Shown here: piece by piece, positions 11,053-58,100 of the stretch
Layout: each line of letters begins with the position of its first letter
Position numbering within the stretch: the stretch's first letter is position 1
Position numbers and translations under genes: made by a program
Notes under the pieces: model-generated
What the model saw: the letters and a program-made list of their open reading frames with translations, nothing else
The model's database searches: none
Told to the model about the DNA's origin: nothing
Assembly (NCBI GenBank): GCA_964019135.1
Contig: OZ025258.1
Span: 28,824,186-28,888,185 of the forward strand
Source: Arenicola marina
Taxonomy: Eukaryota > Annelida > Polychaeta > Arenicolidae
DNA length: 64,000 nucleotides
Direction of reading: 5' to 3'

Positions 11053-12359
11053 GTAAGGAGCGCGCACGTGGTCAATAGATATATATCAATTCCGCTATAA
11101 TGATTATATGTGAGACTATTTATTTCTTCACACGCCATGCTCGCAGTCTCTTGTACAGCCAATATATACAGGTATTACAAAACGTAAGCTCAACACAGGA
11201 AATTATATCACAAATAAGCATTTCGGAGATAGGATGCTGTGCGGAGATAAATCGACAGATTTCGTAATGCACGTTCTGTTTCGGTCAATTTAAATTCCCT
11301 CTAACGTATTCTGGTTTATTTACACCTCTGGATATATTATATGCGTAAATCTTAAGATATTAGTCAGTGACATTCAAAATGGGATCTCTATGCAGTTACT
11401 GCCATCATAGGGCTATAATATTAATGTAGATAGAATGGTTAGTTGGTTTGTATATTCAGGACGCTTTATCCCCGGGGACATGGCTCCACTCTGCCTTCCA
11501 CTCCTCCTATTGACGCGATATGACAAAAATTGGTTAAAGCGTCGTGACTATACAACCAACCAGTCTGACACATAGAGTAGCATACGCGTTTCTATTTTTA
11601 TCTTGACACAGGATACTTCCGGCGCATGTGACAGCGAAAAAAGTGGACGTCATACACCGTGCTCTCACGTGTCACCTTGATGGTATGGACGCCAAGGTCA
11701 TGATGGACAACTTCGCACTGGATTCAAAACGGTCACCCAAACTCAGGAACTACCGCAACTGTATATATAGAGATTACTCCAAGCCTGTACGGAGCAGATG
11801 GAAACACTGTTTACCTTTGTTCCAGGAACAATGTGACTCATCGCCTCTGTCCTTGGTGAAAACTATCCGCTTTCCGCTATACCTAGTCGAGGATTTGATT
11901 GAACGTCTGCCCACCCTCAAGGTCATTCACTACGTGCGGGATCCGCGCGGTATGATGGCCTCGCGTCATGAAATACAAAACATGGCTGATCGCTACTTTC
12001 TGGACGTTGGGGAAAACTTGTGCCAAACCATGGCGGCTGACCAGGTCATGTTCGAGCGGTTGAAGGCACGGTTTGCAAATAACATATTGAGGGTACGGTA
12101 CGAGGATCTGGCTGCGAAGCCCATGCACTGGTACAAGGCAATGTACGCCTTTACGGGGTTGGCCCCGCACAGGGCCGTCATCCGGTGGATAGTCAAGAAT
12201 ACCAAGACCGGGGATGACGGTTTTGATGATCGCTACTCCACCGCCAGGGTGTCCAGGCAGACTGCAGCTCGCTGGCGGCAAACCCTCAGTCTAGACCTCA
12301 TTGATGGCCTCACTAAGGTCTGCAGCAATGTGATCACTGCCCTGGGGTACCAACGGTAA
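10772..12359 (+). CDS. Carbohydrate sulfotransferase (CHST1/3-like), two visible exons
   Basis: Predicted Golgi-type enzyme that transfers sulfate from PAPS to a sugar hydroxyl on glycans. Seen: exons 10772-11052 and 11612-12359 join in phase to give 342 residues. The 5'-phosphosulfate-binding loop is HYRGGSTFIGQIF (R40-S43), followed by FYWFEPL. The 3'-phosphate-binding motif is VIHYVRDPRGMMASR (R203-S211). VRYEDL and the C-terminal C..V...LGY also fit the family. Known: family members are type II membrane proteins of about 380-480 residues with an N-terminal anchor. No anchor is visible here, so an upstream exon is missing or is the weak candidate at 9479-9514. An in-frame ATG at 10730 sits upstream of a plausible acceptor (TTTCGCAG before 10772), and Met at 10802 could be a start. 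Acceptor sugar cannot be inferred. Confidence 0.85.
11053..11611 (+). other. Sulfotransferase intron
   Basis: GT-AG intron of 559 bp (GTAAGG to GACACAG). It contains a SINE-related fragment at about 11452-11563. Confidence 0.75.
11452..11563 (+). mobile_element. SINE-family fragment with inverted end
   Basis: The body CCCCGGGGACATGGCTCC, then TTGACGCGATATGA and TTAAAGCGTCGTGAC, matches the copies at 44913-45000 and 47792-47905 (reverse). Here the beginning (GTTGGTTTGTATATTCAGG) is the reverse complement of the usual tail, so the fragment has about 26-bp inverted ends. This suggests a rearranged or foldback derivative. Confidence 0.65.
11612..12359 (+). CDS. Sulfotransferase exon B (terminal)
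   Basis: Acceptor TCTTGACACAG, AG at 11610-11611. It encodes the 3'-PB motif and the C terminus and ends with TAA at 12357-12359. The last 16 codons plus stop are the first unit of the following 69-bp array. Confidence 0.85.
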
Positions 12360-13156
12360 ACTGACATCATGGTTGGCCTCACCAAGGTCTGCAGCAATGT
12401 GATCACTGCCCTGGGGTACCAACGGTAAACTTACATCATGGTTGGCCTCACCAAGGTCTGCAGCAATGTGAGCACTGCCCTGGGATACCAACGGTGAACT
12501 GACATCATGGTTGGCCTCACCAAGGTCTACAGCAATGTGATCACTGCCTGGGATACCAAAGGTGAACTGACATCATGGTTGGCCTTACCAAGGTCTGCAG
12601 CAATGTGAGCACTGCCCTGGGATACCAACGGTGAACTGACATCATGGTTGGCCTCACCAAGGTCTGCAGCAATATGATCACTGCCTGGGATACCAACGGT
12701 GAACTGACATCATGGTTGGCCTCACCAAGGTCTGCAGCAATGTGAGCACTGCCCTGGGATACCAACGGTGAACTGACATCATGGTTGGCCTCACCAAGGT
12801 CTGCAGCAATGTGATCACTGCCCTGGGGTACTAACGGTGAACTGACTTCATGGTTGACCTCACTAAGGTCTGCAGCAATTTGATCACTGCCCTGGGGTAC
12901 CAACGGTAAACTGACATCATGGTTGACCTCACCAAGGTCTGCAGCAATGTGAGTACTGCCCTGGGGTGCCAAGGGTGAACTGACCTCATGGTTGGCCTCA
13001 CCAAGGTCTGCAGCAATGTGAGCACTGCCCTGGGGTACCAAAGGTGAACTGACATCATGGTTGGCCTCACCAAGGTCTGCAGCAATGTGAGCACTGCCCT
13101 GGGGTACCAAAGGTGAACTGACATCATGGTTGACCTCACCAAGGTCTGCAGCAATG
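12300..13156 (+). repeat. 69-bp minisatellite seeded by the sulfotransferase stop codon
   Basis: About 12 contiguous units. Each contains CTCACCAAGGTCTGCAGCAA, then ACTGCCCTGGG and TACCAACGGT(A/G)A. The first unit is the end of the coding sequence itself. The period (12308 to 12377 to 12446) is 69 bp, 23 codons, so every complete unit keeps the reading phase of the gene and ends in TAA or TGA. A few units are 68 bp through loss of a C. Each unit also has an ATG, making a tandem series of roughly 20-codon micro-ORFs in the presumed 3' UTR. Confidence 0.93.
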
Positions 13157-16446: not shown

Positions 16447-16987
16447 TTATGTCCTTGGTTCAGATACCGTGGGGAGTAAGTACTCATCCTCAGGTGTTGT
16501 CGGCTTGACGACACGAGGAAATACTCCTCCGTCAATCGCGGCCTCGCGCTCATTGTTATTCTTGCTCAGCAACAAGGGGTCGGCGTCACGCGCGGACGCC
16601 GCTACGTCACCATTACGCTGCGGCGCCGCCCTGAACTCTGGAACCGGAACCGGAAGCGGGCGGTTTGCCACCGCTACACTGGCGCCCCCTGCCGCTCCGA
16701 CTGCGACTGGGTCGTCGGTGTATGGGTTGATGCTGGGTCGCGTGAAGCGCCGGGGGCCCTTCTTGTTACAAGCACCTTCGGTCTCGTCAATCTCGCTGAT
16801 CTCCTCGTAAATCTCGTCGTCGTCGCTCATCTCGGGGTACTGACCCCGGTCATGTGATTGTTTCTCCGGGAGTTGGACCGTCATGGGTCTGAGCTCCAGC
16901 TGGTAGCGGGGGTTGGCGCACCCTTCCCATGTGGTGCTGACGTAGGTGTTTTGCTGCGGACCTGTCACGATGGTCGGGCTGCTGCGG
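16447..16987 (-). CDS. SRCR receptor exon 9: cytoplasmic tail
   Basis: Acceptor GATTTCAG (AG 16989-16988). Encodes the tail with tyrosines in NTYVST, PRYQLEL, GQYPEM, DEIYEEISEI, NPYTDD and EDEYLLP, an acidic cluster (MSDDDEIYEEISEIDE) and a proline patch (RPLPVPVPEF, a possible SH3 ligand). Stop TAA at 16449-16447. Confidence 0.85.
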
Positions 16988-19900
16988 CTGAAATCATGAG
17001 ATTAATTTCATTTTATTTCCGACCTAACGCCGCAGTGCCTATTACCTGCTCGGCCCAGGCTGATTGAGCTCATAGTGAGCTCTCAGCGTTCGGCACACCC
17101 ATCGATCTCAAGTTGATAATATCATTATTATTAGTAAGTTTAATGTGCCCTATTATCATAAGTGATGTTTAACAATATTCACAATCATTATGAACAACGC
17201 AGCAGAAGAAATAACGCAATCATAACGCTCCCTTGCACCCATTGACTTGGCGATCATAACGCACGTTTGCCACTCTCGGGTCACAATTTGAATAACGGAT
17301 GAGTGAGGATGACAATCATGAGCAGTGATGATGATGTTGATATTCCACAAATCAACATATGATGTGAACTAAGATAATCGTGAATAATAATAATAATAAG
17401 AATCATGAATCATAATCATGATAATCGTGAAGTGATGATAAGGGAAATACTGTCACCATGTGAAGTTGATGTGACGTGATAATAACAGGGAAGTAATGTC
17501 ACGATGTGAAGTGATGATAAGCGAGAAGTAATGTCACGATGTGAAGTGATGATAAGCGAGAAGTAATGTCACGATGTGAAGTGATGATAAGCGAGAAGTA
17601 ATGTCACGATGTGAATTGATGATAAGCGAGAAGTAATGTCACGATGTGAAGTGATGATAAGCGAGAAGTAATGTCACGATGTGAAGTGATGATAAGCGAG
17701 AAGTAATGTCACGATGTGAAGTGATGATAAGCGAGAAGTAATGTCACGATGACAGGTAAAGTCATGATGGGAAGTGATGTCATGATGAGAGCAAGACATG
17801 ACGATGAGAGTATATCAGTATGTGATAACGACAGTATATAAGTGTGTGATGATGACAGTATATAAGATGTGATGATTACAGTATATAAGATGTGATGATG
17901 ACAGTATATAAGATGTGATGATGACAGTATATAAGATGTGACATAATCACGAGTCATTAAGAGAATTAATTAGGCAATCACGACAAATTATCGTGGTAAT
18001 ATTGGCCCTACCTCCTAGCTCTTGCGGCCTTGACCTTGATGACGGCCACGGTCACAGCCACCACCAGGGTGACGAGGACAATGAACCCGGCAACCAAGGC
18101 AACCAGATGGAACACGTTACCCTCTGAAACACACGACCATACATGAGTATTGTTTATTCCACAATGAGAAAATACATCATCGAAAACGATTAGTGGTTTT
18201 TGTATTTATGTTTACAACCAGGTACACACTAGGATCTCATACCCGGTTCCTAGCTGCATCGTAGGCCCTACCCCCGGGTGGGGCACTATTATACCAATCT
18301 GGTGGGGTGGGGGGGGGGGGGTTCGCGGGTGCCCCTTGATGCCTGAGAGAGCGGACATTTATGATGAAAAGGATACCCCTATAGTCCGACCGAGGGAGGG
18401 GGAGGGGGGGGGGGGCTCTGAAAATGTGCGTTCGGGTTTGCCGGATATGGTCGCAAGGTACTCAAGTTGCTTAATTAGCAGATGCATTTTCATACATTTC
18501 CGTAATCCTTAATTAGCAGATCAATTAAGTTATGCATTTCATACCTTTCAGCACCTTTCATCTAAGTCCCTTATATATTTCAGACTTATTATGTCCTTAT
18601 AATATAGCAAGGCCACATGATGGCCACACTAAAATTGAGTGTGGTCCAAACATAATACTTTCTTTCGTCATCAAAAAGGAGTTCTCCGTAAAAACAATTA
18701 CCCGAATCGGCGTCCCCGGCGTCTACGGATGTCGTCACTCGTAGCGTCACTGTAGACGAAGGCGTCATGGAAACTGTGGACGTCGTGGTTGTGTCTTAAA
18801 TCCAGATATTAAATAGGAGAGTTATTAACGGAGCTATAGAAAACTAGATTATGCCATCCGGAAACATTCACCGACTTGAATGTTAGATTTTTGCGTCAAC
18901 ATCATAATAATAACTAATAATGACTATAAATATATTTTACATCACTGCCTCTGGTGGCATTCACTGTGACATTCCGCGCATTATATGCAGTTTGCTATTA
19001 AAGGGTCTTTGACGCCGCAAATAAAAAGCAAGCTGGTGGATAATGGTGCATCGTGAGAAAGTTGCGGTTATAGTTCCTACACGAGCGATTATGTGTTGTG
19101 ATGAATAAGTATGTTATATTAAGAATTTATATATACCTTTTGGTTTTGTGGTGGGCTTCACAGGTTCCACCATCGTGCACTGAACAGCCACATCCTGATA
19201 ATGTCTGCAATCTGTTTCTCCCCACGCCCCCTGGTGAGCGCAGTTGTCAAGCCGAGCCTCGCTTCCGTTACATGCCACATCGGATAACCAGATGGCGCCA
19301 CTGCCGTCTCCGTACGGTGCCAAGTCGGTCACGCGACCGTCTTTAAATCCAAGCTGTCGGCAGGCAACCCTGCAAACGTCATAAAATCACGTGACTTGTG
19401 GCTATGCGGGCAGCGGGGAACCTATATCGTGTCGACTTGCGGCGTAATAATCAACTTTTAGACCAACTGTGCAATTGGGGGGCCAGTTTTCCACGCATTG
19501 TAAGCTCAGGTTAGTACGTTCTAAAGTTTCGATCAACTTCACGATTTGGAAAATGTCAACCAATCAGCGACGAGCATTTTAGCCAATCAGCGTTAAGATG
19601 ATCACGTTGATATTTGTTTGCATTATGACAGTAAGGAACTTATGTGTGGCTTGTATGCATGACGTTATGAATGATGCTCTAATGGTATGTTCCCTATGTG
19701 CTTACAATGCGTGGAAAACAGGCCCTCCAATTGCACAGTTGATCGAAAAGTTGATTTGTTGCAATCAACTCTACAACTACTACTGCATCGTATCAATAGG
19801 GCATAAGAGATGTGATTGAGGCGTGTTGCACATGAAAAAAAAACAAGCCTCTCTCCATTAAAACTAAAGGGACGTATACAGAATGCCAACGTTGTTGACC

Positions 19901-22900
19901 AACTAAAACAATTTAATGTATACTGTATGGTAAACACCACGTTCTGTTTAGTCTGTGCGTCTGATGTTGAGACCGCACACCCCCCCCCCTCCCCCCTCGC
20001 CACAGCCCCACCTCCCACACCGCGCCCGACAGGCACCCACCTGGCGTCTGCATCGTGCCACCCCTCCGAGCAGACTGTGCCCCAGACGCCATGTTGGCTG
20101 ACCTCCAAACGACCGCTGGAGTTCGTAGGGCCCCCTACCAGGCGAACTTCTCCTAAAAGGAAAGTGAATGAATTGTTAGAATTGTTTGTATTTATATACA
20201 TGTATTGGAAGGCATTTTATACACTTATATTATGTAGCCAATGACAATATCTGAAATGAATATCATCTAAAGTGAATTTAATGCTTCGTTAACTTAACAA
20301 CCGCATCATAACCACTGGTGCCACTGAAAAAGTCCATGACAATGACAGAACATGCATGTTCTGACTTCTGACAATTGACAAAGAATACATTTAAAGCATC
20401 ATGATTATTTTTAAAAAAGATATATTTATATATGAACTTTCCAGGGGGGGGGAGCTAATTACCCGTGGGGCATAGCGCGCAGACAACGCCGACGTCAAAA
20501 TCGTGGGGGCAGAAGTTGTCGCCCCAGTCTTGGTGGGGGCAGGCCGCCAGCTGGGGCTCGTGACCCTCACAGGCCACCCTGTCCAGCCACACCGGCCCAG
20601 ACGTGGGCGTGAAGTAACCAGGGTCACCCTTGATCGGACTGCCCTCGCAGTAACCCAGCTGCCGGCAGGCAACTCTGAAACAGGCAACGGGTACATTGGG
20701 GATTCGTTTACGCCACTGCTGATGGTTGAGGTCGATTGAGTAAGAAACGCGCAATGTGTGACAACGAATTGGCATAAGGACACAGCCACGGTGAGTAACT
20801 TTACATCCATTTATCAAAGCAGGTTAGTTGAATGGTTTAAGACGAACCCTTTAAGCTCTGTACGTAATAAATATCGCGACAATGGAAAGGGTCAAAGGAG
20901 AGAGGAACCCCGTCTCCGGCAGGCATGTCTCAGGGAATAACCCCCTATTCTTTGTGAAGAAAAAACATGGGGTCTATATCCTGCAAACAACACATTTGCA
21001 CAGAAGGGATTCGAACCACGCACCGGCCGCTGGGGCTGGTCTGGCAGAGCACACTCGGCAATCGTCGAACGCGTTACTTAGGTCACAGGGTAACCGTCGT
21101 TAGAACTGGACTACAAGTTATCATCGCATATTATATTGTAGCGAGATTTAATGTGTATAAACCAATGTAACTGGTTGTAGTAGTCGCGGTTATTGAGAAG
21201 GATTAAGCATGTTTTTTTCGGGGGCAAATATGAATCAGACAAGGGCATAGGGGGATGGGGGTGGGGGTGGTGGAGGGCGCGGGGCGCTATAAGCTCTAAA
21301 TTACCCGTTTTACTAACCTCGCGTCCTCGGCCCCCCACTGATTATGGCACACGGTGCCCCACACACCCAGGTACTGGATCTCTACTCTCCCTGTTGTGGG
21401 AGTGGAGCCTCCACTGCCAAGCCGAAGTGTAACTATACAAACAAAAAAATATTATATATGTTATATTTCTGTGTATATGTATGTTTTATTAATGTCCGCG
21501 TGAAGTCCTCCGGACTTTACTTCTGTGGCAAATACGACAACCTGTGTCGCAATATGTACATATCCATCATAAATTTTTCTGGCGATAATGTATTATTATT
21601 AGTAAGATTCATGTGTTTGTGTAAGATTCATGTGTTTATCATTATATAAGTGAAAAACACGCCGTATAATCAGAATATATCAAAATCAAATTGTAAAACA
21701 GATTAAGCACATTGGGTGGGTCGGTGAAAAGCGTACATCACAACATAATCCAAATTATCCAAAACTGTAAACAAATATTTCAAATCAAATTGAACAATAT
21801 ACCTTCTGCCGTTTCAGATCCATTGACAGCCGCGTCGTCCGTGACGCAGACGACTCCCGCGTCATCGCTGTGACTGGCCCAGCCGATGCCCCATGATCCA
21901 AAATGGCGGCAGTCCCTAATCCTGGCCTCAGCGCCATCACAGCTGACGTCAGTGAGCCAGATGTTATCCGAGCCCTGGCCGAAGGCGGCGTGATGAGCGG
22001 GTTTGCCGTCCGCGTACCCTAGTTGTCTGCAGACCACTCTATGGGAACACAATATATAGCGGTCTAAAGGTGTCCGCGTACCCCAGCTGTCTGCAGACCA
22101 CTCTATGGGAACACAATATATAGCGGCCTAAAGGTGTCCGCGTACCCCAGCTGTCTGCAGACCACTCCATAGGAACACAATATATAGCGGTCTAAAGGTG
22201 TCCGCGTACCCCAGCTGTCTGCATACCACTCTATGGGAACACAATATATAGCGGCCTAAAGGTGTCCGCGTACCCCAGCTGTCTGCATACCACTCTATGG
22301 GAACACAATATATAGCGGTCTAAAGGTGTCCGCGTACCCCTGCTGTCTGCAGACCACTCTATGGGAACACAATATATAGCGGCCTAAAGGTGTCCGCGTA
22401 CCCCAGCTGTCTGCATACCACTCTATGGGAACACAATATATAGCGGCCTAATCGTGTCCGCGTACCCCAGCTGTCTGCATACCACTCTATGGGAACACAA
22501 TATATAGCGGCCTAAAGGTGTCCGCGTACCCCAGCTGTCTGCAGACCACTCTATGGGAACACAATATATAGCGGCCTAAAGGTGTCCGCGTACCCCAGCT
22601 GTCTGCAGACCACTCTATGGGAACACAATATATAGCGGTCTAAAGGTGTCCGCTACCCCAGCTGTCTGCAGACCACTCTATGGGAAAACAATATATAGCG
22701 GTCTAAAGGTGTCCGCGTACCCCAGCTGTCTGCAGACCACTCTATGGGAACACAATATATAGCGGTCTAAAGGTGTCCGCGTACCCCAGCTCTCTGCAGA
22801 CCACTCTATGGAAACACAATATATAGCGGCCTAAAGGTGTCCGCGTACCCCAGCTGTCTGCAGACCACTCTATGGGAACACAATATATAGCGGTCTAAAG

Positions 22901-25900
22901 GTGTCCGCGTACCCCAGCTGTCTGCAGACCACTCTATGGGAACACAATATATAGCGGTCTAAAGGTGTCCGCTACCCCAGCTGTCTGCAGACCACTCTAT
23001 GGGAACACAATATATAGCGGTCTAAAGGTGTCCGCTACCCCAGCTGTCTGCAGACCACTCTATGGGAACACAATATATAGCGGTCTAAAGGTGTCCGCTA
23101 CCCCAGCTGTCTGCAGACCACTCTATGGGAACACAATATATAGCGGCCTAAAGGTGTCCGCGTACCCCAGCTGTCTGCAGACCACTCTATGGGAACACAA
23201 TATATAGCGGTCTAAAGGTGTCCGCGTACCCCAGCTGTCTGCAGACCACTCTATAGGAACACAATATATAGCGGTCTAAAGGTGTCCGCGTACCCTAGCT
23301 GTCTGCAGACCACTCTATGGGAACACAATATATAGCGGTCTAAAGGTGTCCGCGTACCCCAGCTGTCTGCTGACCACTCTATGGGAACACAATATATAGC
23401 GGTCTAAAGGTGTCCGCGTACCCCAGCTGTCTGCAGACCACTCTATAGGAACACAATATATAGCGGTCTAAAGGTGTCCGCGTACCCTAGCTGTCTGCAG
23501 ACCACTCTATAGGAACACAATATATAGCGGTCTAAAGGTGTCCGCTACCCCAGCTGTCTGCTGACCACTCTATGGGAACACAATATATAGCGGTCTAAAG
23601 GTGTCCGCTACCCCAGCTGTCTGCTGACCACTCTATGGGAACACAATATATAGCGGCCTAAAGGTGTCCGCGTACCCCAGCTGTCTGCAGACCACTCTAT
23701 AGGAACACAATATATAGCGGTCTGAAGGTGTCCGCGTACCCCAGCTGTCTGCAGACCACTCTATGGGAACACAATATATAGCGGTCTAAAGGTGTCCGCG
23801 TACCCCAGCTGTCTGCAGACCACTCTATAGGAACACAATATATAGCGGTCTAAAGGTGTCCGCGTACCCCAGCTGTCTGCAGACCACTCTATGGGAACAC
23901 AATATATAGCGGTCTAAGGACGTCCGCGTACCCCAGCTGTCTGCAGACCACTCTATAGGAACACAATATATAGCGGTTTAAAGGTGTCCGCGTACCCCAG
24001 CTGTCTGCAGACCACTCTATAGGAACACAGTATATAGCGGTCTAAAGGTGTCCGCGTACCCCAGCTGTCTGCAGACCACTCTATGGGAACACAATATATA
24101 GCGGTCTAAAGGTGTCCGCGTACCCCAGCTGTCTGCAGACCACTCTATGGGAACGCAATATATAGCGGTCTAAAGGTGTCCGCGTACCCCAGCTGTCTGC
24201 AGACCACGCTATGGAAACACAATATATAGCGGTCTAAAGGTGTCCGCGTACCCCCGCTGTCTGCAGACCACTCTATGGGAACATAATATATAGCGGTCTA
24301 AAGATGTCCGCGTACCCCAGGTGTCTGCAGACCCCTCTATGGGAACACAATATATAGCGGTCTAAAAGTGTCCGCGTACCCCAGCTGTCTGTAGACAACT
24401 CTATGGGAACACAATATATAGCGGTCTAAAGGTGTCCGCGTACCCCAGCTGTCTGCATACCACTCTATGGGAACACAATATATAGCGGTCTAAAGGTGTC
24501 CGAGTACCCTAGCTGTCTGCAGACCACTCTATGGGAACACAATATATAGCGGTCTAAAGGTGTCCGCGAACCCCAGCTCTCTGCAGACCACTCTATGGGA
24601 ACACAATATATAGCGGCCTAAAGGTGTCCGCGTACCCAAGCTGTCTGCAGACCACTCTATAGGAACACAATATATAGCGGTCTAAAGGTGTCCGCGTACC
24701 CCAGCTGTCTGCAGACCACTCTATGGGAACACAATATATAGCGGCCTAAAGGTGTCCGAGCTATACCGGAATTCTCCTTTACAAAATTGTGAAAATTATA
24801 TGGCCTAATGAGTATAAGAATAATCGATTAAGTTAACGTTACTAAATAATCATAGCGCGTGGGACACTCTCAGATGCACTGTCAAACTATTGGTACCAAG
24901 CCAGAACAAGTTTGTGATCAATTCGTCCCTGGTTCAAAACTCCGTCTAGGTGATCTAATCTGGGGCAGATTTCATCCCATTATTCATTGTTTCCGGAGGG
25001 TCCTTGGTCTAATTTAGCCCTCAATGGCCTTCAAACAACGATCGCTTCATAGCATTTCCAGAACAACTACGGTGATATTAATCTACTATGTTTCACCCGT
25101 CGGTATTTCAGACTCATGTGTTATGGCCCGCATAGTAGTTCTAAGAAGGCTTAGCGCACTTAATGGCTTCCACTTAACGTTACTTCATCTCACCCAGCCT
25201 TTAAAAAGGGAATGCAAACCCACGTGCTTTCATTTTTGCGCTGATGACTATACATAAACCAACGAAAAAAAATCGGTAGTGCTAACCTGGCTCTGAGCGC
25301 CCATGATTTTTGATGGGCCTCCCCACAGTCTCAACCTTAACAAATCTGGTACACACAGGCTCACATACCTGGCGTCCCGCCAGACCCAGCCTTCACACAT
25401 TGGTTACACATGGGCTCACATACCTGGCCTCCCGCCAGTCTCAGCCTTCACACATTGGTTACACATGGGCTCACATACCTGGCCTCCCGTCAGTCTCAGC
25501 CTTCACACATTGGTTACACATGGGCTCACTTACCTGGCCTCCCGTCAGTCTCAGCCTTCACACATTGGTTACACATGGGCTCACATACCTGGCCTCCCGC
25601 CAGTCCCAGCCTTCACACATTGGTTACACATGGGCTCACATACCTGGCCACCCGCCAGTCCCAGCCTTCACACATTGGTTACACATGGGCTCACATACCT
25701 GGCCTCCCGCCCGTCCCGGCCTTCACACATTGGTTACACATGGGCTCACATACCTGGCCTCCCGCCAGTCCCAGCCTTCACACATTGGTTACACATGGGC
25801 TCACATACCTGGCCTCCCGCCAGTCCCAGCCTTCACACATTGGTTACACATGGGCTCACATACCTGGCCTCCCGCCCGTCCCGGCCTTCACACATTGGTT

Positions 25901-28900
25901 ACACATGGGCTCACATACTTGGCTTCCCGTCAGTCCCAGCCTTCACATATTGGTTACACATGGGCTCACATACCCGGCGTCCCGCCAGTCCCAGCCTTGA
26001 CACATTGGTTACACATGGGCTCACATACCTGACGTCCCGTGAGTCTCAGCCTTCACACATTGGTTAAACATGGTCTCACATACCTGGCGTCCCGTGAGTC
26101 CCAGCCTTCACACATTGGTTACACATGGATTCACATACCTGGCGTCCCGTAAGTCCCAGCCTTCACACATTGGTTACACATGGGCTCACATACCTGGCGT
26201 CCCGTGAGTCTCAGCCTTCACACATTGGTTAAACATGGTCTCACATACCTGGCGCCCCGTCAGTCCCAGTCTTCACACATTGGTTACACATGGGCTCACA
26301 TACCTGGCCTCCCGCCAGTCTCAGCCTTCACACATTGGTTACACATGGGCTCACATACCTGGCGTCCCGTGAGTCCCAGCCTTCAGACGAGATGGTACCC
26401 CACGCTCCCACGTGTAGGATCTCTACTCGGCCGCTATATGAGGTGGGTCCGTTCACCAACCGCACGTCTGTCAAACAACCACATCACAAGCAATAACTAA
26501 CGAACGTATTTTGCGACACAAACATCCACAATAATGGGTCGGAATTCAAATATTTTTTTTATATTTGAAACGCCTGTTTGAAATAACTCTTTTGAGTTTT
26601 GTCAAAGTTAAGTCACATGACACTCTTGTAAATTGTTCTCAACTGAGCCTATAGTGTTTATTGAGAACGGTAGGCCTACTGTGATAAATAGTGCTATTAG
26701 AAAGCTGGCGCGTTTTTTATTGCAATTAGTTCACAATAAATCCATATATATGTATTGAAATAGGAAACATAAATATATGTGTGACAAACTGATGGCTCCA
26801 ATTGAATTTCGTTCTAAACGGAGGGTGCCACCAACAAACAGGTGATTATGCGACCCCCCCCCCCCCGCCCCCCGCCCCCACCCCGCTCCCCCGGAGGCCG
26901 TCCATGCGTCGCTGTGTCACCCGTGGCTGCGTCAAGGGGATCGGTCCCCTACCCCCCTCGTGGTCATGATTCATATACAGGAAAGGGGAGTGGGGCCTTG
27001 GGTTTCTTCTATCAGCGCCCTAGCTGACCCCACTATCCACCCCACAAAATACGCGGACTCAAATGCCCTCACGCGTCAAATTAACTGAATGGCGCTCACA
27101 GAAATGAACCAGTTTCCAACCGTGATTAATAATTAAATCCTGATGTCGCACTCGGATCCACTTCCGATCCGTCTGGGTTACACGACTACGTGGTCGGTCA
27201 GTCAGCAGTGTGGAATCCGGATCAGCGAGGCGGAGTTGCGATCCAGAGTCTGTCCATACAACGTGTCCGCGTGTGTGACTATATAGCCATATATGGTGTC
27301 TGCGTGCGAAACGCAACGCAAACAACTCGCTCTGACTCTGTATATACACCCCCTCTGGTAAATATACCATTGTACAATAAGACTACACACTATGTAAAAT
27401 ACTACAGCTAGATCCACGCAACTAGCCTGTAATACCTAAATATTAGTACAATCTCCACAAGCCGGATCCTTTATAAAACGACGTAATGACCTCATATAAC
27501 GGCTGTTTTAATGTGCGACTTTAAACCCCAGAATTATTGAGGTGACCCCAGAATTACTAATTACTGGGGAGTCACAACCACAAAATTACTATATATATAT
27601 ATGTTTTTTTAATAAACCGGCTACCCGTCAAAATCGGCCAATCGCATCACACATCGTCACCATGGCGAATAGAGGAAGGTGAAGAGGCACTGTAGTTTAT
27701 AGGCTTGAATTAATACAAACTCCACAAGTCGCATCCTTTATAAAACGCCTAAATAGCGGTTGTTCTAATGTACGACTAAATAGCGGTTGTTCTAATGTAC
27801 GACCCCGGAATTATTGCGGGGACCCCAGATTTAATAACTACTAGGGAATTATTGCCCTAGATGTACTGATTACTGGGGAATCACTACCACAGAATTACTA
27901 TATATATAAAAAAATGTAATAAAGCGGCTGCGTCAAAATCGGTCAATCGCATCACCCCTTGTCACCATGACGAACAGAGGAAGTTGAACGACTGACGTAA
28001 TTGTAATTGGACAGGAAGTAGCTGTAGGCACGAATTACCGTCGACAATTCATAATAGTTTGATGTGGTTAGAAGCCAATTAGAAGGAATTCGCCACAGCT
28101 GAACAGTATAGCCGTGATTCTACTCCAACGGCATATAGCAAAGGGCTAACCACAATAGCCTCTTATTATTTATCAACCGCGTCGGTTTATAAATAGCATA
28201 TATCGTTTTATGCACATAATGTCGTTGGCATTATCGGTAATAGCTGGCAATTTCGTTTAGGCGCTCTATCAGCTTTTACGAGTATTGTACTAACGTGTAA
28301 CAACTAGCTGGCATTTGTCAGACGATGCGTATCTGGGTCTACTTGCTGCCAATAATAAACGGCCCATACGAATAGTAGGCTAACATGTTGTTGTAGGTCA
28401 ATAGTATTAGGCTTCATGGTTAGCTTCCCTATATATTTAGGTTTAAACGTCGCTGTTGTAGATAAAGAGAGTTTATCCTGTATTCAGAGCTATTGCTGTT
28501 GTACAACAACATATATCAGCCTCACGTTCTTGTAATTTTAGCTTCACGTGCTACCTTGGGCTGTGAACCTTAGTTGTCGCACATCGATACTTTACGGCAG
28601 TGTTTCGAGGTTGTAAATGCTGGCATACATCAATAGACTTTACGGCAAGCTATCAAGGTTATGAACGTTGTCTGTCATCGATACTTTACGGAAGTGCAGA
28701 ACACTGTCGTACGGTATCAATGAAAGACTCCAGTGGCCAGTTTCCATTTATGATACTGGCGACATAGAAAGTGTTACTCTCAGGTTGGACACTAAAACAG
28801 CCTGAGTGAAATTAGCAAAACGTCGACCGAGCGGATTTTGGCGGGGAAAAAAGGCGGGGGGGGGGGGAGTCCGCGGGTAAGCCCCCCCCCCCCGCCCCCC

Positions 28901-40779: not shown

Positions 40780-41590
40780 GTCTGACATTCTAGTCGAGAA
40801 CCCAGTGGTCGTGGTGTTCCAGGTTCTGTGGTACCACCATTTCGCTAAGTTTTGTAGTTTTCTTTCCAAGACACAAAATTATATGAGGATAAGCTACATT
40901 TTGACGATTGCTTATTTAATTCAAGACAAGGGAAAACAAGTGAGAATTCAATCTTGGGGAAAAGCTTTAGTTCGAGACAGAACAGAAAGATTTACCGGAA
41001 AAGTGGGCTCTCTATCATATCGCCGACAGGGAAGTCTGCGGCTAGATTGATACCACTATCCTTAGTCTACCTGCCATAATATGCGGTAATGGTCAATCAT
41101 GTTTGATATATAGGATGCTTTAGCCAACTTTGGGAGAGTTGACATAGTCACAGAAAGGATCAATTTATTGCAAATAACAGTATAGAAATATATAACTTTA
41201 TATTCCGTATTGAAAAATATAGCCTATACTTTTCAATATTTCCGAATGTTCTGAACAGGTTAATAAAAGAGTATAGATGGAAAGAAGTATAGCAGTAGCT
41301 ACAGGTGCGCCAGTGGTACTGGATACCTCAGATATATATTATAGTACTTAGATCCAGGCTGTAAATTGGGATGGATAACGCTTTAGAATGTTATAATCAT
41401 GGGTATACATTTGTCTAGGGATGTACTACCAGTTCTGGATCCTACGCTGGCTCAAAACTTGATAAGAGCATTTATACTTTAACCACCTATGGTAAGGTTA
41501 ATATTAGGTTTTAGTTTGGTTTTTATGTAGCCTGTTTATGTTCATACAGTCTTCTGAGACCTGGCCTCTGCCCATGGTCGTTTATGGTAC
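40780..41590. other. No gene seen
   Basis: The ORF at 40778-41050 begins inside the end of the 22-bp array and shows no family features. Confidence 0.5.
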
Positions 41591-42400
41591 AGGTTACACC
41601 AAATTGGTATACATGGTAACGTTATGAAAGTACTCAAGTCTATGACGGTACGCGAATATCAAATCTTGTATCAATGTGCAAGAACAAATCTCAGACTTTT
41701 GTGTCATTCTACTGGGCAGAGGCAGGGTTGTATCCTTAGCCTCTTTTTGTTCGATATGTTTTTCAACGAATTGTGCGATATGAGTACGCAAGGTAATTGT
41801 AACGGTATCTATACCCGGGTATATCAGAAACTTTCCCGAAGGTCACAATATTATTTTATGCTGATGCTGCTCTGCAATGCGATGATACTGTCGGGCGTTT
41901 ACAAAGACAACTTGATGTTCTCTCATAATACTGTCAAAAATAGGAACTGCAGGTTAATACAGAAAAAACGGAAATAATTGTGTTCCGGAATGGGGGAGCC
42001 CTGCCATCAAATGAGAAATGGTTTCTTAACGGTCAGAGGTTGAAAGTAGTGATATATAGTAAATATTTAGGTTTAATGTTGTCATCGCGCGTAATATGGT
42101 CCGTCGCACGTAGAACGCTAGACGCTCAGGCGAGTCGACATGTGACTAGAACTAAGAACGCCGAAGCTCAATGTTCATGTAGTCTTCTGAGGCCTACCAA
42201 TATATATTGCAACTTTGCCCTTGGTGCAAGTGCCTGTTTGAAGTCCAGTTACTGGGTCCAAAGGGAACACATAATCCCAATATATTGTACCATCAGAATA
42301 GAATATCCATTCATTTTATTCAGGGGCACAATTAGAATATTTGCTGATATGTTAACATATACACAAATAGACAGAGACGTTTAGTGATGTAAATGTAGGT
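41590..42400 (+). mobile_element. Degenerate reverse-transcriptase relic (non-LTR)
   Basis: Two frames at 41624-41977 and 41980-42384 carry GQRQGCILSLFLFDMFFNEL (the GxxQGxxLSPxLF RT motif). In another frame FYADA sits where the catalytic YADD is expected (near 41855). These are followed by LNTEKTEIIVFRNGG-like sequence split by frameshifts. The catalytic second Asp is replaced and frames are broken, so it is dead. CR1, Jockey and RTE groups all use this arrangement; I cannot choose between them. Confidence 0.75.
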
Positions 42401-43079: not shown

Positions 43080-43790
43080 CCTGCATGAATATAAGATATA
43101 AACACATGGCTATAGTGGCGCGTTCAGGTACAGACAGAGAGATGGCGGGTTTTGACTTTCGCCTCAACACATAGCTATAGTAGCGCGTTCATGTACAGAC
43201 AGCGAGATGACGGGTTTAGACATTTACCCCGACACATGACTGTGGTGACGCGTTCAGGTACAGAGACAGAGAGATGGCGAGCTTAGACTTTCGCCTGGAC
43301 ACATGACTGTGGTGACGCGTTCAGGTACAGAGACAGAGAGATGGCGGGTTTAGACTTTTGCCTGGACACATGACTGTGGTGACGCGTTCAGGCCTGGACA
43401 CATGACTGTGGTGACGCGTTCAGGTACAGAGACAGAGAGATGGCGGGTTTAGACTTTCGCCTGGACACATGACTGTGGTGACGCGTTCAGGTACAGAGAC
43501 AGAGAGATGGCGGGTTTAGACTTTCGCCTGGACACATGACTGTGGTGACGCGTTCATGTACAGAGACAGAGAGATGGCGAGTTTAGACTTTCGCCTGGAC
43601 ACATGAGTGTGGTGACGCTTTCCGGCACAGAGACAGAGAGATGGCGGGTTTAGACACATGACTGTGGTGACGCGTTCAGGTATAGACAGAGAGATGGCGG
43701 TTTAGACTTTCGCCCCGACACATGACTATAGTGGCACGTTCAGGTACATTGAGACAGATGACAGGTTTAGACTTTCGTTTAGATATGAAA
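43080..43790. repeat. 67-bp minisatellite
   Basis: About 10 units containing GACACATGACTGTGGTGACG, CGTTCAGGTACAGAGACAGA and GAGATGGCGGGTTTAGACTT. Each has a donor-like TTCAG/GTACAG, but it is not derived from a visible exon. A single diverged unit reappears at 44030-44110. Confidence 0.88.
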
Positions 43791-45940: not shown

Positions 45941-46195
45941 ATGAGTGACGTGTCCGAGACGGCGTCCAACGCCCCTCAGCCGACTGAAGAAGACGTTGCC
46001 GAGGAAACGGACGAGCGCGCGCCGCTGTGTAATAAGCTGTCACGTGTTCTCAAATCGTACCTCACTCAAGATGATTCTGATGGCGGCTCGGGGGACCTCA
46101 ACAGCAAGACTTTCTTCACTGTCGAGCAGGCCGTGGAGAACATGGGTTTCGGACGATTCCAGTGGAAGCTCTTCTTCGTCTGTGGGCTGTTCTCG
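45941..46195 (+). CDS. SVOP-like exon 1 (start; cytosolic N terminus, TM1)
   Basis: Begins MSDVSETASNAPQPTEEDVA and ends WKLFFVCGLFS at donor TTCTCG/GTAAGT (GT 46196-46197). 85 codons, phase 0. The region before the ATG has no usable acceptor in frame, supporting this as the first coding exon. Confidence 0.88.
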
Positions 46196-49100
46196 GTAAG
46201 TAGTCCGTCATTATTTGACTGAACTGTAAGTGGAACTTAAGGGAATATTTAATAATATGATTGGGAAAACATGGAGAAAGTTTCTAAATTAATGCTTTCA
46301 TAGTTAAATTTATGGTCATCTACGGTCTATCCATGGAAAATAATTTGTCTGTGCAAAATATAATATTAGAAGCCACAGAAACGAGCAACTGACAGGTAAC
46401 CGTTGCAATACATATATTTATAGATCTCTGTAGTCGCAACATGCTGAAAAATTAAATGAAATTTTAGTATTTTATGCCGCTTTTGAGTACTTGAAGGCTA
46501 AGATGTGCGAGAAAGCGTCTATGAACCAATACATGGAGTTGCGCATAACATTCCCTAGATGCAGATGCCAGGGTTCGAACCCACAACCTGTTAATCTGCA
46601 ACTCAGACTGATTACCAACTGAGTTAATGAAGCTTACTCTGACATGACGATATTGTATAACTGCCTCAATGCTCACGTGCGATGCTGTAGCGATGTTGCA
46701 GAAAGCCTCGAATTAAGAAGCTGTTCAAATTTCACGAGTCTTCTAGAACATGAAAAGTACCTAAGTGTCGTAAATATTAGAAAATATAGAATAGCCATAA
46801 CAAAATTTAGATGTTCAAATCATGATTTATGCATTGTAACAGGGAGAAGAGATAACACGCCGGTATTGGACAGATTATGTATATTCTGCAAAGCACAGAA
46901 TCCAAATATTATAGAAGATGGATGTCATTTTTTATGTGTATGTCCTTTATATAATAGTCTTAGAACTCAGTATTTGCCACTCTGATCCAATAATGATGTA
47001 AACTGCTACTTTTTGCAGCTTATGTCAAACAAAACCCCTGATATTATATTAAAACTAATTTGCTTTGTGTATCAAGCTAGGGGATCCAGAAAAGTCTTTC
47101 TATTAAATTGTTAGTGTAAATGTATGGTAATAAGGTTTATGGTGATGTGTATTTGGCAATGTATTATGGGCCTGAGGCCATACGGTATAATAAACTGTTC
47201 TGTTCTGTTCACGCAAACATGCCCGAACAGACTTCCAGTGATAGCAATAGTCAGATAATGTCCCGCCTAACGGTGTTTTCCCTCTCTGCTCAAAGCCATG
47301 TGCGGCGGAGTCCTGTTTCACGACCACCGAACCATTAAAACCGCCTGTTCCACTCTTTAGGTTTTGCTTTAGCCTTTAAAGTAGTACGCCGGATCAGGGT
47401 GGTGCCACCTACCGAGTACTATGTATGTGCGACTGTTCTCCTCCTGAACATGCTTTCTTAGCAATATTTGACATGTTCATAAGAACATATAAGAACATAT
47501 CCCGACATTTTTCTGATAATCCATTTACAAATGGGGCCACGTTGTACTTGTCGTATCTTCTTAGACATTTACAGTATGTAGTTGATTGTAGCCTTCGATA
47601 AGCTGGATTAGGATGAGAAGCTCAGGTTACATTCACGACACACGAGGAAGTCGGGTGCGAGTAGAGCGGCCGAGGGGGGAGACAATATAGCCCAGCTGCC
47701 ACGCTACATCGCTGCAGTTTGCGGTATGACAGCTGGGTATTAATCGAGCTTGCTATGTTAATAACGCATTAGTTACCAAAGCATTAGGTCAGTTGGATGG
47801 TTGTATATTCAGGACGCTTTAACCACTTTAGGTCATATCGCGTCAGTGGGGGGGGGGGGAGTGGAGCCATGCCCCGGGGGTAACTCCGTACTCTTTGCGA
47901 ATAGGAACCCAAGGCATATGCACATTTATATTCAAGCCTCTCCTTCGTAAAACATAAAGTGTGAGGATGATTACAATGAATGTTTGATCCAATTGACTGA
48001 TTGAAAGAAAACGGTACAGTGTACATTCGACCTATGCTGTCCTGAATGCACAATTTTCGGCAATTCGACGACCTCGCTACTGCGACTCGACCCCCTATTA
48101 CTCAGTCTCGGGGGTTTCCCTGCTTGTATTGTGTATTGTATGGAGACGTTGTTCCGTTCTCGACCTGTTTTGCCAGTTCATTTTGCTTCCCCATTGGTTT
48201 ATTTATTGGCTCGGTATAACCCGTATGTCCACGAACTTCGTATGTCGTATACCAATCCCTATATCCTATGAACCAGAATCTAGCAACCATCTCAAATGTC
48301 AAATGTCTTGTCTGAGTCAGTGATGACTAGTGATGGCTTCACAACTTTTGGAATGAATTAGTGCTTTTTAATGGCATATGGACTAAACCAAATCAAGGAA
48401 CAACATGTATGCTTGCGCGAAATTATGAAATTAAACAATTAAATCCAAGCAAATCAAAGTATGGATGGATTAGATTGTTGAATTGACGCCTCACTGAAAA
48501 GGGGGGTTCGGTGGGGGGCCCTAACTGCATTTGAAAATCATAGACGTCTCTGGTGTTTCATTTCCAGATCTATGTTACCAATACATATTTATACAACTGC
48601 ATACTTGCTTTTGCAGGCCACAGACGCCCTGGAGATGTTGTTGCTGTCTGTCTTGTCGCCTGTCCTGCGCTGTGAATGGCTCCTCTCGGAGTGGCACGTG
48701 GCCTTTATCACCACGGTCAGTAACCATAGCAACCAGTCACTTCCGTTCGCGCGCTTTCTGCGAATGGTTTTCCCATTGGTCCTGGTGCATAAAATAAGAC
48801 CATCAAACTTTGGGATATAATAATGGGGCAGTGTATAATGCGCGGTGTCTGTTGAGTGGACAGTGGTCCTTGATAAATTGTTCTCTTGAGTTTTAATCAT
48901 TCGTGATGAGTTACAGTTTTCCCTTGAGAGACGTTTGGAATCAAATATAAATGATATGCGTCCGTTCCTATCGCATTTGATCACCGCTGCATAGGTAATA
49001 ACAATAACGAGTAAGTATATATAAACAAGAACTCAGTGGGACACTGATGATGACGATATTTGGGTCAAAGAGCGTGTCTTTTGCAACCAGTCCCGTCTCT

Positions 49101-52100
49101 CTAGCGTCGCTATTGAACCAACGGCGGCCATCGCAATCCGAATGGGGGGCAGGTCGATATCGCCGTTGACTTATAATGGGAGCCTCAGCAAGGTGGGGTG
49201 CACCTCTTGCGAGCGCTCTAACGGCCAAACTAAGCGTCCTAGAGCAATTCTGTTGAGATTTACCAATGGACAACCTTACAGTTGTCTCTCGCTTCATGCC
49301 AAATCTGGGTTGCCCAGCTCAAATATTAACCAAGTTATGGCCATTCAAAGTTAAAAACCCCACTAAACGCGAGGTGGACGTCAACTATTGCTGTCACATT
49401 AATGAAACAAATTTGCTTTCTAACTGTTCACGCTACCTACTTATGAACTTATAGTGATATTACCTAGTGGCTAAATACATGTAGGTAAGAATTAATTGCT
49501 TTCACAATTTCGTCGGGTAACGTAACTTCGACGTCATTTTTGACGCACACGTTTCGGTACCGCGAAAAAAGTTTCCCGCGGCAGCATTTGTCCCTGGATG
49601 TAAGGTACGACGTCAAATAAATTGGAAGTCGCCATGACGTATAATAACCGAGTAATGGCTTTTGTAAAACTATGACGTCATGGCGACGTCGTGACGTGAC
49701 GTATGACAACGTCCAAGTAGCAATGCGCCAAAGTTTACTGTCACAACTCATTAGCTTAAAGAGCCAGGCGATAGGAAGAATAGTCCTTCAGATATGGCTT
49801 GACGAAATGGCCAAAAGTTGCATTAGTTTATCATTGCGGAGACACCGACGTCTCATAGAGAAATGCCGTCGGCCTTGGAACCGGAAGTAAGATCAGAACG
49901 TATCATTTTTAGTGCGCAGCTATACCAGGAACTACTTTCCCTACAATATGACGCTACTCGCGCATTTTTATATTTATTTGACGATTTTTGACGATTTTTT
50001 GTAAGTATCAAAAGTGACGTCATCATGACGTCACGTGACGCTTCAGCAAACTCTACGATTTAACACAAGTCCTCTTAATTCATATTTCTATGACATATTG
50101 GAACATCATTGCGATAGCTTGATGGTAAATGTGTCAAAAAGCGAAAAAAAAACGACAGAGGTCATTTAATGCGTTTTCCGCAAAACCTATGATCTCATTT
50201 TGCTCGAAAATGGGTATTACAATACACGAAAACTGCGCCTTAACGGGTAGCACATTTTGAGACTGACCCGAGATCTTTAGCTTCAACATTAACCAAGATG
50301 TAAGCGTTTTTAGTTATTTTTCAAAAAAAAATCGCTGTGACCTTGACCTTTGACCTTTTGACCTGCGTGACCAATATGTTGTAGCCCTATTGCGTTGCTA
50401 TTAGGCAATAATGATTGCAAACCGATGTATGCATCCATTAGGGCGCAATGAGACTTGTAATTTTTGAGTGAAGCAGACATCGTTACATACTTACAAACTA
50501 GCAAACACGACCGGCCGACATATGCCGAAAATTGAAAATGTCAATTTTCGTCATAATAAATATATAGCTATGTGATTTATGAATAAAAGACTTACTGGTT
50601 ATATCCGGTGAATGTATATATTGCCGGCAAAACATCGTTGAGGGCCTATATTACAACACATTACCTGGCTGGTACGTGTACTTACATACATCAAGATAAT
50701 AATTGCATCTAAGTACAATAAATTTGCACGCCATCTGTCCCTCCATCAATGTAATGGTGAGGTAATATAGATCCCTGGTACATACACTCTACTCCTTGTG
50801 AACACGTGTAAGCTATCTGGCCTTAGCAACACGGGTCATCTGACCTTGGCAACCCGGGCCATCTGGCCTTAGCCACCCGGGCCATCTGGCCTTAGCAACC
50901 TGGGCCATCTGACCTTAGCAACCCTAGCCATCTGGCCTTAGCAACCCGGGCTATCTGGCCTTAGCAACCCGGGCCATCTGACCTTGGCAATCTTGACCTT
51001 GGCAACCCTGGCCATCTGGCCTTAGCAACCCGGGCCATTTGACCTTGGCAACCCTGGCCATCTGGCCTTAGCAACCCGGACCATCTGGCCTTAGCAACCC
51101 GGGCCATCTGACCTTGGCAACCCTGACCTTGGCAACCCTGGTCATCTGGCCTTAGCAACCCGGACCATCTGACCTTAGCAACCCGGGCCATTTGACCTTG
51201 GCAACCCTGGCCATCTGGCCTTACCAACCCTAGCCATCTGACCATGGCAACCCTGGCCATTTGGCCTTTGCAACCCGGGCCATCTGGCCTTAGCAACCCG
51301 GGCCATCTGGCCTTAGCAACGAGGACCATCTGGCCTTAGCAACCAGGGCATTCTGAATCGTAAAAGTGAGAGTTTAATCCAAGGTCCGTGACACGTAAGG
51401 TCACGCCCTGACCCGTCGTGTGACCTGTGCTGTAGTTGGTGACAGTGATCCGGGTCGGACCCGGAAACAATTTAATATATATTGGAACTTTGTAATGTTT
51501 GTTTGCAGGTTGTCTTCGTCGGGATGTTCGTTGGATCCAACATGTGGGGAAGCTGGGCCGACAAATATGGCCGCCTTACGGTAAATTATGACAGTGTTTG
51601 ATCCGATACATTTAGAGCTTCGTAGCAGCCTAAAGTATGCACAAGCACTATACTGAAATTCGCTTAATTTGTGGATAAAACAGTAACATTGAAGCGTATC
51701 TTTGGGTACTCAACTAGTTACAAGAGGATTTATCTGTGTGAAGTGAACCAGTTTGACAGGTTAGTAAAGCCAAGTGAAAGTAACAATTCCCGTTTTTCCG
51801 GGTATTTTTTATTATAATATGCAGATCCTGATGATAGCTGCCATCTGGATCTGCTACTTCGGGCTCCTGACGGCCTTCAGTCCTAACTACACGTGGGTCC
51901 TGATTCTTCGCTGTCTGGTTGGAGCTGGATTTGGAGGGGCGGTCCAGTCGTAAGTGTCACCGCACACAACAAGCCACACTGGGCGACACGTGGCGACAAT
52001 AATAAAGTAGTGACACGTGGATCTAATAATAGAACTAATGCTGCGTGGATCTAATCATAGACCCAGTGCCACTTAGATCTGATAGAACTAGAGCCGTGTT

Positions 52101-55100: not shown

Positions 55101-58100
55101 TCGATACCTTGGGGGTTAATCGATTTGGATTCGTGACGGGTCAAATGTGAGATATGGAGAGACTGAAATTATCCGAGTATAAACTGATGCGGAAATCCAA
55201 GGCCGTGAAAATACTCAGGCTGTGACTATTGTAGCTGCCTTCACCCCTGTCGAGTGTAAAGTGTTCTCCAGTGTAAAATTTTAATTATGCCAGGCCCGAC
55301 GTCTTCCATAGATCAGTTATTCAGCCGGCTGAGCTACAGATCAACAGGTCACGGGTTTCCGCCCTCCAACCCGCATTGTAACTTTGTAAGCAAGTTTCAT
55401 GCGACCCCGTGTTATTGCCGCGGCGATTGACCAAGACTAGCCTTTATGGGCAAAAAATAGGCACAATAGCGATTACTTTCCATTTATGCACGTTTAGACT
55501 TTGGTCTGGTTTCCTGCAGATCCACACTTGAATTGGTTGTGTTGGCTGATTTTTCCCCATCACCACCATCGTTGAAAGTGTCTTTCATCTTAGCTGTGTT
55601 GGCTGTATTAAAGACCTCCATCACTATAAGTTAAAGTGGGTGTCCAACCTAAATTAATCGCGATCTGCACCAAAAGTTTACATCTCAAAATTAATTTGGC
55701 GTGTGTTAATGCTTCGTTTCGGCCGCCTGGTAAGGATAAAAAAATTAAGGCAACCCGCCCTCATCAATGTGGAGCAGCGCACCATTTTGTCGGAGCAAGT
55801 GACGTATATTGTGACCCTTCATGTGGCGCCGCCTTACGTTATAACTGAACGTTATCTCGCGGAGGGAACTCTTCACAGTGAGGTACCCTTCAGGGGAAAC
55901 GCGTGAAACGAGCGATCAGGGTCGCGATTTACGGATGAATTGCAGCAGTTCCAAGCCGCGCAGTACACCATGATCTTATTGTTTCATGGAAAATTAGCCG
56001 CCAAACATATTGATATATATCTTGCAACGATTGTCTCAGTAAAAAAAACATGATTGGATAGAATCGCAGCTATTTATATTAGCAATGATCACGCGCTCTT
56101 GTTTTGCTCACACAGTAGGCGTCATTTCCGGTTTGAATATAATTAGAGTATCGCCTCCTGATTCAATCGCGGACACAGCTCCAAAAATGGCTACCGCCTG
56201 GTTAATCGGCGAAATCGTGGCTGGTGGTCACTTCTAAAACAAAATTGTGAGCTACAGACAGGAGGAAAAAATTATGTAATTTAGAGGATACAAATTTGGG
56301 TATTATATGAATCGGTAAAGCAGCGTTAGAGTCCAGGCTGGCGGCTTCCTTTAAATAAGTAGTCTGCTATTGGCTGTTTTATGTTTGGTTGCTTACTTCG
56401 CCATCAATATACATATATACGTATATAGTGTCGTTTGTGCACCTAGTAAAGTAAACATATTACTACTATCGTCGTCCCTGAACAATCAAAGCGATATTTT
56501 ATAACTAAGCAATCATAATGTGAGTAATGTCTTCATGGCCTACCTGATCATTGTTTCAGTGTATGTGGGCTATCGGCAGTACATTTGAGGTCTTCATGGC
56601 CTACCTCATCATTCCCCGAGGCGGGTGGAGAGTCCTGGTCGGTGTGTCCGCTCTACCAACCTTCGTCACCATCTTCTGTATATGGGTGCGTACACTCCAC
56701 AATGTGGCTAGGTTAAGGCATTTTAACGGAAAAGAACAAAATATTCAATCTTCTAATAAGATTTTTCATGTTATCGCCCCTATCATAATAGCTATTCCAT
56801 TCCATGCAATACTGTTATTATTGGCTCGTATTATTGTAAATTTTTCCCGAAATATAAACTTTTTCCCTGTTGACTTTTTTAAAACTCAAAAAAAAAGTTG
56901 ATGTTAAACCAGCGTTCATAGTATGTCGCCTGTCTGATCTATCATATGGGATTGACCAAGGCACGCGCATGTGTTCTTTGCAGACGCTGCCAGAGTCAGC
57001 GCGCTACCTGGTGGCCGCTGGGAGAAACGATGATGCGTTGAAAGTATTGGCGAAGGCGTCTAAAGCGAATGGGAAAACTCTACCCCCTGGCCAGCTTGTA
57101 GCATCCAAAAAGGTTTGCGTTCTCTGAACGTTGCCTCTACAATGATAGATAAGTAGATTTATTGCGAATGCCGCCAGCCATAGTGCATTTACAATGTAAC
57201 GTGATGCAACAATGTACTTTATATACCAATAATCTAAGCATTGCCAAACTGTCTTCTCTACTTAAACATATTGTACAAAAAAACACCGCGCCGCATGATC
57301 TGCTCTTCTTTCGGGTGATCATAATTCTTTTAAAGATATATAGGGGGTCCTTATTAGTATTTCATTTTCTATTGCATTTATATAAAAAAAAACTTACATA
57401 ACATATTCTCTCATCCAGTGGTACATTGTTATACCTGTCGGTTATTAGTTTTAAATAGCGACTTGAGCATCGAAATCTTGCTGGCGCGGCTAACTGTTTC
57501 CTGATGTGCACGCTGTTTAAAATGTAACTCGGGTTCCAGTTGACGTTTAAAACTACAATTTGTTTTTATGTTCCTGTCTTATGTCTGTACTATGTATAAT
57601 ACGAACCAATGATCCTGGTTTCTCTGTCTGCATGCTCTTGCATCTGTCAAATTGCGCGTGTAATATTTGTATCATTTTGTTGAAGCGCAAGACCATCTTT
57701 GTGTCATTGTTTTTATATTTTGTATGTAAGGGCGAACCATTGCTTCAGCGTAGCTGGCATATTATGCACGCCTTACATTTACTACAATAAACCAGTTCGT
57801 GGGCTCTAATATGGAAGGTGACCCAATGTATTCGCATTATACAGTTGTTGAAATCGCCTCAATGCGTTACACATTGTTTTACATGCTGTACATTTGATGG
57901 CCGCAGGTGCCCCAGGGCCGGTACCGAGACCTGTTCGATCCCAAATACCGGCGAACAACACTGCAGCTCTGGCTGCTGTGGTTCGGCGCCGCCTCCAGTT
58001 ATTACGGTATCATCCTGGCCCAGTCAGAGACTGGAACGAAACAGCGTCTGTGAAGGTCAGTGCCCCTCCCCTCCCCCCCCCCCCTCCCGTCATCCCCTCC

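Follow-up and report, generated by a model that had tools for sequence, protein, structure and literature searches.

Minisatellite-like arrays placed across the edges of exons are known from lancelets under the name of mirages. They were described in the Adh3, globin, TnC and PGBD5 genes, at 5' as well as at 3' edges, the globins concerned being named BflGb6 and BflGb9, and normal splicing is reported for Adh, TnC and globin and somatic instability for Adh3 (PMC3087553, PMC3902484, accessible portions). The accessible part of PMC2812944 describes boundary repeats of recent human duplicates, with units that average 30 bp and are present four times, which often go along with alternative transcripts or proposed new introns, and that of PMC10809524 describes dual-specific sites, where a single site is used in both the 5' and the 3' role and the intron length is a whole number of units. 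Here we describe a stretch of 64,000 nucleotides from the annelid Arenicola marina (assembly GCA_964019135.1, contig OZ025258.1, positions 28,824,186 to 28,888,185 of the forward strand; hereafter the window, with positions counted from its first letter), in which one intron of a gene encoding SRCR domains begins with an array of its own donor site and ends with an array of its own acceptor site. A first-pass annotation of this sequence had referred to the amphioxus mirages, and the accessible portions of PMC3087553 and PMC3902484 contain both the term and the structure. The two arrays are probably minisatellites that have grown neutrally from tandem duplications across both edges of an old intron in this annelid SRCR gene, which would make them of the mirage type but double-ended.

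Gene structure and repeat arrays

The modelled part of the SRCR gene lies on the minus strand and consists of six exons (26359-26467, 21803-22038, 21318-21432, 20463-20674, 20041-20152 and 19137-19369) which join in frame to encode three SRCR domains, and the joined product matches Pfam SRCR in three stretches (E 3.2e-81). Among the 120 matches listed of 2834, the best identity, 47%, is to a lancelet protein and there is no annelid name. A putative last exon on the same strand (16447-16989) is assumed from an open frame alone.

The first SRCR domain is split by an intron of 4320 bp (22039-26358, minus strand), bounded by GT and AG and of phase 2, which keeps the frame between exon SRCR1a (26359..26467, 109 nt, encoding the 5' half of the domain) and exon SRCR1b (21803..22038, 236 nt, encoding the 3' half). 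Tandem Repeats Finder reported 19.5 copies of a 55-bp unit on the donor side (25316-26385, 92% matches) and 43.1 copies of a 64-bp unit on the acceptor side (22008-24758, 95% matches). The donor array (25316..26385, minus strand) is composed of 19 full 55-bp units and of one degenerate partial unit at its inner end, and each unit joins the last 27 nt of exon SRCR1a to the first 28 nt of the intron. GT is found in 19/19 copies, AGGT in 17/19 and GTATGTGAG in 17/19. The acceptor array (22008..24753, minus strand) is composed of 43 units of 64 bp, six of these having 63 bp, and each unit joins the last 33 nt of the intron to the first 31 nt of exon SRCR1b, with the AG preserved in 42/43 copies. 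The working copies are the outermost units of their arrays, at 26331-26385 for the donor and at 22008-22071 for the acceptor (both minus strand), the latter differing from the array consensus by two changes which are both synonymous. The unique core that separates the arrays (24754..25315, minus strand) measures 562 bp, close to the approximately 570 bp of the first-pass annotation, whose main structural claim, a donor array and an acceptor array on the two ends of the same intron, was confirmed with 19 donor and 43 acceptor copies. The 55-bp and 64-bp units have no blastn-short match to each other or to the remainder of the window, and within the window no copies at a distance, as expected of a dispersed mobile repeat or introner, were seen. 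Chance is impossible as the source of both arrays.

The second and third SRCR domains are interrupted by sister introns of 643 bp (20675..21317) and 671 bp (19370..20040), both on the minus strand and both free of arrays. The intron position is identical in all three domains, after '...DAR' and in phase 2, and the inter-domain introns of the gene are of phase 1. Since this position and phase are common to the three domains, the domain 1 intron is considered to be old. When the arrays are collapsed to one copy at each end, 562 + 28 + 33 = 623 bp are left, versus 643 and 671 bp in the sister introns; residual similarity between the unique core and these two introns was sought and none was found. 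The domain 1 intron is an ordinary old intron that was inflated by the arrays and not made by them.

Intron gain by tandem duplication is reportedly known from a potato gene. A birth of the domain 1 intron from the duplication of an AGGT-bearing exon piece would agree with the AGGT motif of the donor copies and with the gains of this kind proposed for lancelet globins (PMC3087553, accessible portion). Nevertheless the likelihood of such a birth is extremely remote, given the position and phase common with both sister-domain introns, the 562-bp unique core and the fact that the two intron ends belong to unrelated repeats.

The domain 3 intron contains an inverted repeat (19449-19508 and 19697-19756) with 60-nt arms that are 92% complementary.

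Stop codons and choice of splice sites

All 19 x 43 = 817 donor-acceptor joins were made and each was translated from exon SRCR1a through to the end of exon SRCR1b. The join of the outermost donor with the outermost acceptor is the one that is free of stops (1/817), and the other 816 contain a stop codon, including every one of the 271 joins that, besides the outermost pair, keep the frame (252 + 13 + 6). The geometry of the arrays and the reading frame agree that the usable site is the outermost copy, and the first-pass annotation had likewise argued for one outermost functional site.

The splice sites were scored with a matrix built from 15 other introns of the window. At or above the score of the working donor we found 17 of the 19 donors, the working one counted, and no other GT of the intron; at or above that of the working acceptor we found 39 of the 43 acceptors, plus 146 other AGs. 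The working acceptor had at first appeared weak (-0.1 versus 6.0-15.9 on the first 15-intron matrix), but in a leave-one-out comparison it was the second lowest of 16 and within their range, and a weak working acceptor was dropped from consideration.

As the competing sites are near-identical and cannot be told apart by their strength, the choice among them must rest on position. The simplest positional rule is exon definition, by which we infer that the sites are chosen. The modelled exons have 64-255 nt and the 16 modelled introns 244-4320 bp, and exon definition is expected in a setting of such sizes. It favours the outermost sites because these bound the shortest exons, of 109 and 236 nt. 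The SRCR intron is, in this respect, a natural test of exon versus intron definition: if sites are paired across the intron, the innermost of the near-identical copies should be preferred, and if they are paired across the exon, the outermost; the use of inner sites would show up in messages that are lengthened by a multiple of 55 or of 64 nt and contain a stop codon.

It could be proposed that the arrays are functional, the occasional use of an inner site giving truncated or degraded messages that tune the amount or the form of the receptor. The inner sites are intact (GT in all donor copies, AG in all acceptor copies except one), the inner donors are as strong as the working one and every join through an inner site brings a stop. 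We regard a function of this kind as very unlikely, as homogenisation preserves sites without any selection, the exon pieces of the inner copies decay and the sister introns have no arrays.

Variation among copies and origin of the arrays

Neutral growth of the two minisatellites would have started with tandem duplications across the donor edge and across the acceptor edge. At each duplication the outermost copy would stay beside the real exon and the remaining copies would become intron, the gene staying intact while the array grows; the arrays would then expand and homogenise in the manner of minisatellites, with their inner copies freed from coding constraint. The correct message would be obtained exclusively through the outermost donor and the outermost acceptor, and mis-spliced products may be removed, for instance by nonsense-mediated decay.

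Exon-derived and intron-derived columns were compared in the non-functional copies. In the 42 such acceptor copies the 31 exon-derived columns have 15 distinct variants (29 non-consensus cells) and the 33 intron-derived columns have 16 (36 cells), and the 18 non-functional donor copies present 16 distinct variants in 27 exon-derived columns and 12 in 28 intron-derived ones. A stop lies in the exon piece of 8 of the 18 inner donor copies, and 6 of the 43 acceptor copies are missing one base of their exon piece. Distinct variants at codon positions 1, 2 and 3 number 3, 5 and 7 in the acceptor array and 4, 8 and 4 in the donor array. We read the inner copies as being without coding constraint.

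The private variants of the acceptor array are concentrated at its inner end, with 17 of them in the 21 innermost copies versus 5 in the 21 that follow (P 0.006); when the division was picked after viewing the table, the 14 innermost copies have 16 and the remaining 28 have 6 (P 7e-5). Such inner-end variants fit a minisatellite with an old edge.

The private and shared variants that distinguish the copies are many, and this bears on the quality of the assembly. Tandem arrays are difficult to assemble and the window does contain a 200-base N gap elsewhere (1223-1422), so mis-assembled reads might be thought to lie behind the copy numbers or even behind the arrays themselves. In addition to the variants, there is no gap close to the arrays and the gene reads through them correctly, and we find an artefact of this type highly improbable.

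Several observations weigh against neutral growth from duplicated edges as set out above. The exon-derived and intron-derived columns of the donor array are not plainly equal, the former varying more (38 versus 14 non-consensus cells). In the acceptor array, third codon positions account for 18 of the 29 exon-derived cells and for 7 of the 15 distinct variants, a lean to which one shared deletion contributes and which is a mild counterpoint to the absence of coding constraint. The donor array has no simple age gradient: its innermost full copy stands out with 7 private variants, variation is found in the outer copies as well and the middle of the array is uniform. The motif CGGAC ends both the inner flank of the acceptor array and the acceptor unit; it could be the trace of a founding duplication at short homology or, less favourably, a mere partial copy, and for the donor array no founding short homology is evident. 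Finally, the correct splicing of the domain 1 intron is assumed.

Exon edges and repeats in the window

In the window 67 rows of Tandem Repeats Finder were merged into 33 arrays, which amount to 23% of its length, a high content of minisatellites for DNA in which three or more genes lie. The modelled edges number 41, that is 38 splice edges, two stops and one start, and three of them lie inside arrays, namely the donor and the acceptor of the SRCR intron and the stop of a sulfotransferase gene. The last of these arrays (12294..13156, plus strand) has 12.5 copies of a 69-bp unit, the first copy holding the end of the sulfotransferase frame and its stop (12357-12359), and corresponds to the stop-codon version that the first-pass annotation had placed in the same 64 kb. 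That annotation also mentioned a two-copy stage. A single two-copy structure was found at a modelled edge, at the acceptor of transporter exon 6 (56529..56613, plus strand), where the exon bases 56590-56613 recur upstream in the intron at 56529-56552. However, this is a partial duplication of 24 bp (23/24 identical, 61 bp apart) whose intronic copy is without an acceptor of its own, and it may not be the one that was meant.

From these arrays it had been suggested that exon edges in general tend to seed repeats. When edges were rotated against arrays, the coincidences averaged 9.1 edges and 4.8 arrays, so that three edges are no excess (P of at least three, 0.97); in a binomial view edges in arrays are even in deficit (P 0.008), and a scan for local duplications found the identical three of 41 edges versus 22-26% of 1500 random positions. 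On these results the suggested tendency is not supported. The opposite impression is given by a null of one founder unit per array, under which 0.61 such cases are expected and at least three occur in 2.0% of trials (P 0.020; 0.56 and P 0.014 for the 22 stronger arrays), an expectation that is too low because exons are missing from the list and it was for these arrays that the window was selected. Moreover two of the three edge arrays are on one intron; given one splice edge, the chance that the next one drawn from the 38 modelled splice edges would be its partner is 1 in 37 (after-the-fact arithmetic). The three edge-preference tests diverge and none is firmly supportive. That splice junctions start duplications more often than other places is in our opinion unlikely; selection purges arrays within exons and tolerates those that span an edge, which makes edge arrays conspicuous without any bias.

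A wider proposal may be made, in which minisatellites recurrently form at exon edges as a mutational mode of animal genomes, in groups far removed from lancelets as well, and can raise the donor and the acceptor of a single intron to tens of copies while the gene stays intact. The spliceosome would then select the one stop-free join out of 817 by position alone, and edges might even be preferred seeds. Taken as a whole this proposal seems rather doubtful.

Other genes and repeats

The transporter gene (45941-61392, plus strand) was compared with 7999 scored candidates, those sharing the most words with it. Its product shares 70% identity with a protein of Capitella teleta, the match covering 92% of the query; the values are 61, 59 and 56% for proteins of Lamellibrachia, Helobdella and Owenia, respectively, and 45 and 44% for two proteins of Branchiostoma lanceolatum. 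A tree of 24 rows places the window beside Capitella with a support of 91/92, under the 95/80 bar, within a group of five rows (three annelids, an orthonectid and the window) that has a support of 98/93. The sulfotransferase gave seven matches, the top two being from the annelids Paralvinella and Capitella with 32-33% identity. An amphioxus setting for the locus, in line with the mirages that had been brought up, is contradicted by these annelid-like neighbouring genes, which point to an annelid host, perhaps one related to the capitellids; the SRCR matches themselves are not decisive in this respect.

As modelled, transporter exon 8 (region 57907-59575) has a stop just before its donor and is out of frame with exon 9, a possible sign of gene damage, of an error or of an exon edge that was missed. 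An array of 1.3 kb, rich in C and T, starts approximately 8 bases into the intron that follows this exon. A 67-bp array on the plus strand (43102-43777) has a unit with a donor-like TTCAG/GTACAG. Open frames at 41558-42381 resemble, as judged by eye, remnants of reverse transcriptase. Two near-identical open frames, each of 121 aa and running in opposite directions (433-795 and 1829-2191), are placed on either side of the 200-base N gap and represent either an inverted repeat or a palindromic element.

Comparison with known systems

The closest likeness is with the amphioxus mirages, in which a minisatellite-like unit lies over the exon/intron edge, many of the copies keep their splice signals and the inner units, though not the edge of the array, are homogenised (PMC3087553, PMC3902484, accessible portions). 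In the SRCR intron the unit likewise spans the edge, with 27 nt of exon and 28 nt of intron at the donor and 33 nt of intron and 31 nt of exon at the acceptor, and its lengths of 55 and 64 bp are within the 10-160 bp given for mirages in the accessible portion of PMC3087553. The differences are that the SRCR case belongs to another phylum and that its arrays stand at the start and at the end of the same intron, while the accessible text of the lancelet accounts (PMC3087553, PMC3902484) presents no single intron of this kind. In addition, its copy numbers are 19 and 43, versus 2-7 in the lancelet globin and PGBD5 mirages of these same accounts. In a further lancelet study (PMC2632668) the accessible text contains no exon-edge arrays.

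The internal tandem repeats of human segmental duplications are similar in that minisatellites at exon-intron boundaries alter gene structure (PMC2812944, accessible portion), but the SRCR intron is old and its arrays are far longer. With the dual-specific sites of polyubiquitin UBC it shares AGGT splice motifs in the repeat units (PMC10809524, accessible portion); however, the SRCR donor unit is unrelated to the acceptor unit, and neither unit length divides the intron evenly (4320/55 = 78.5, 4320/64 = 67.5). Large minisatellites are also described in an annelid intron, that of earthworm metallothionein, but there the repeats are inside the first intron and the accessible text does not state that they span a splice site (PMC12783039).

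The occurrence of a lancelet-type structure in an annelid means that its cause should be sought in tandem duplication and splicing in general and not in a quirk of lancelets. Judged by its structure, the SRCR intron would be a double-ended variant of the mirage and, as far as the open-licence literature shows, apparently the one that brings this type of array to a new phylum.

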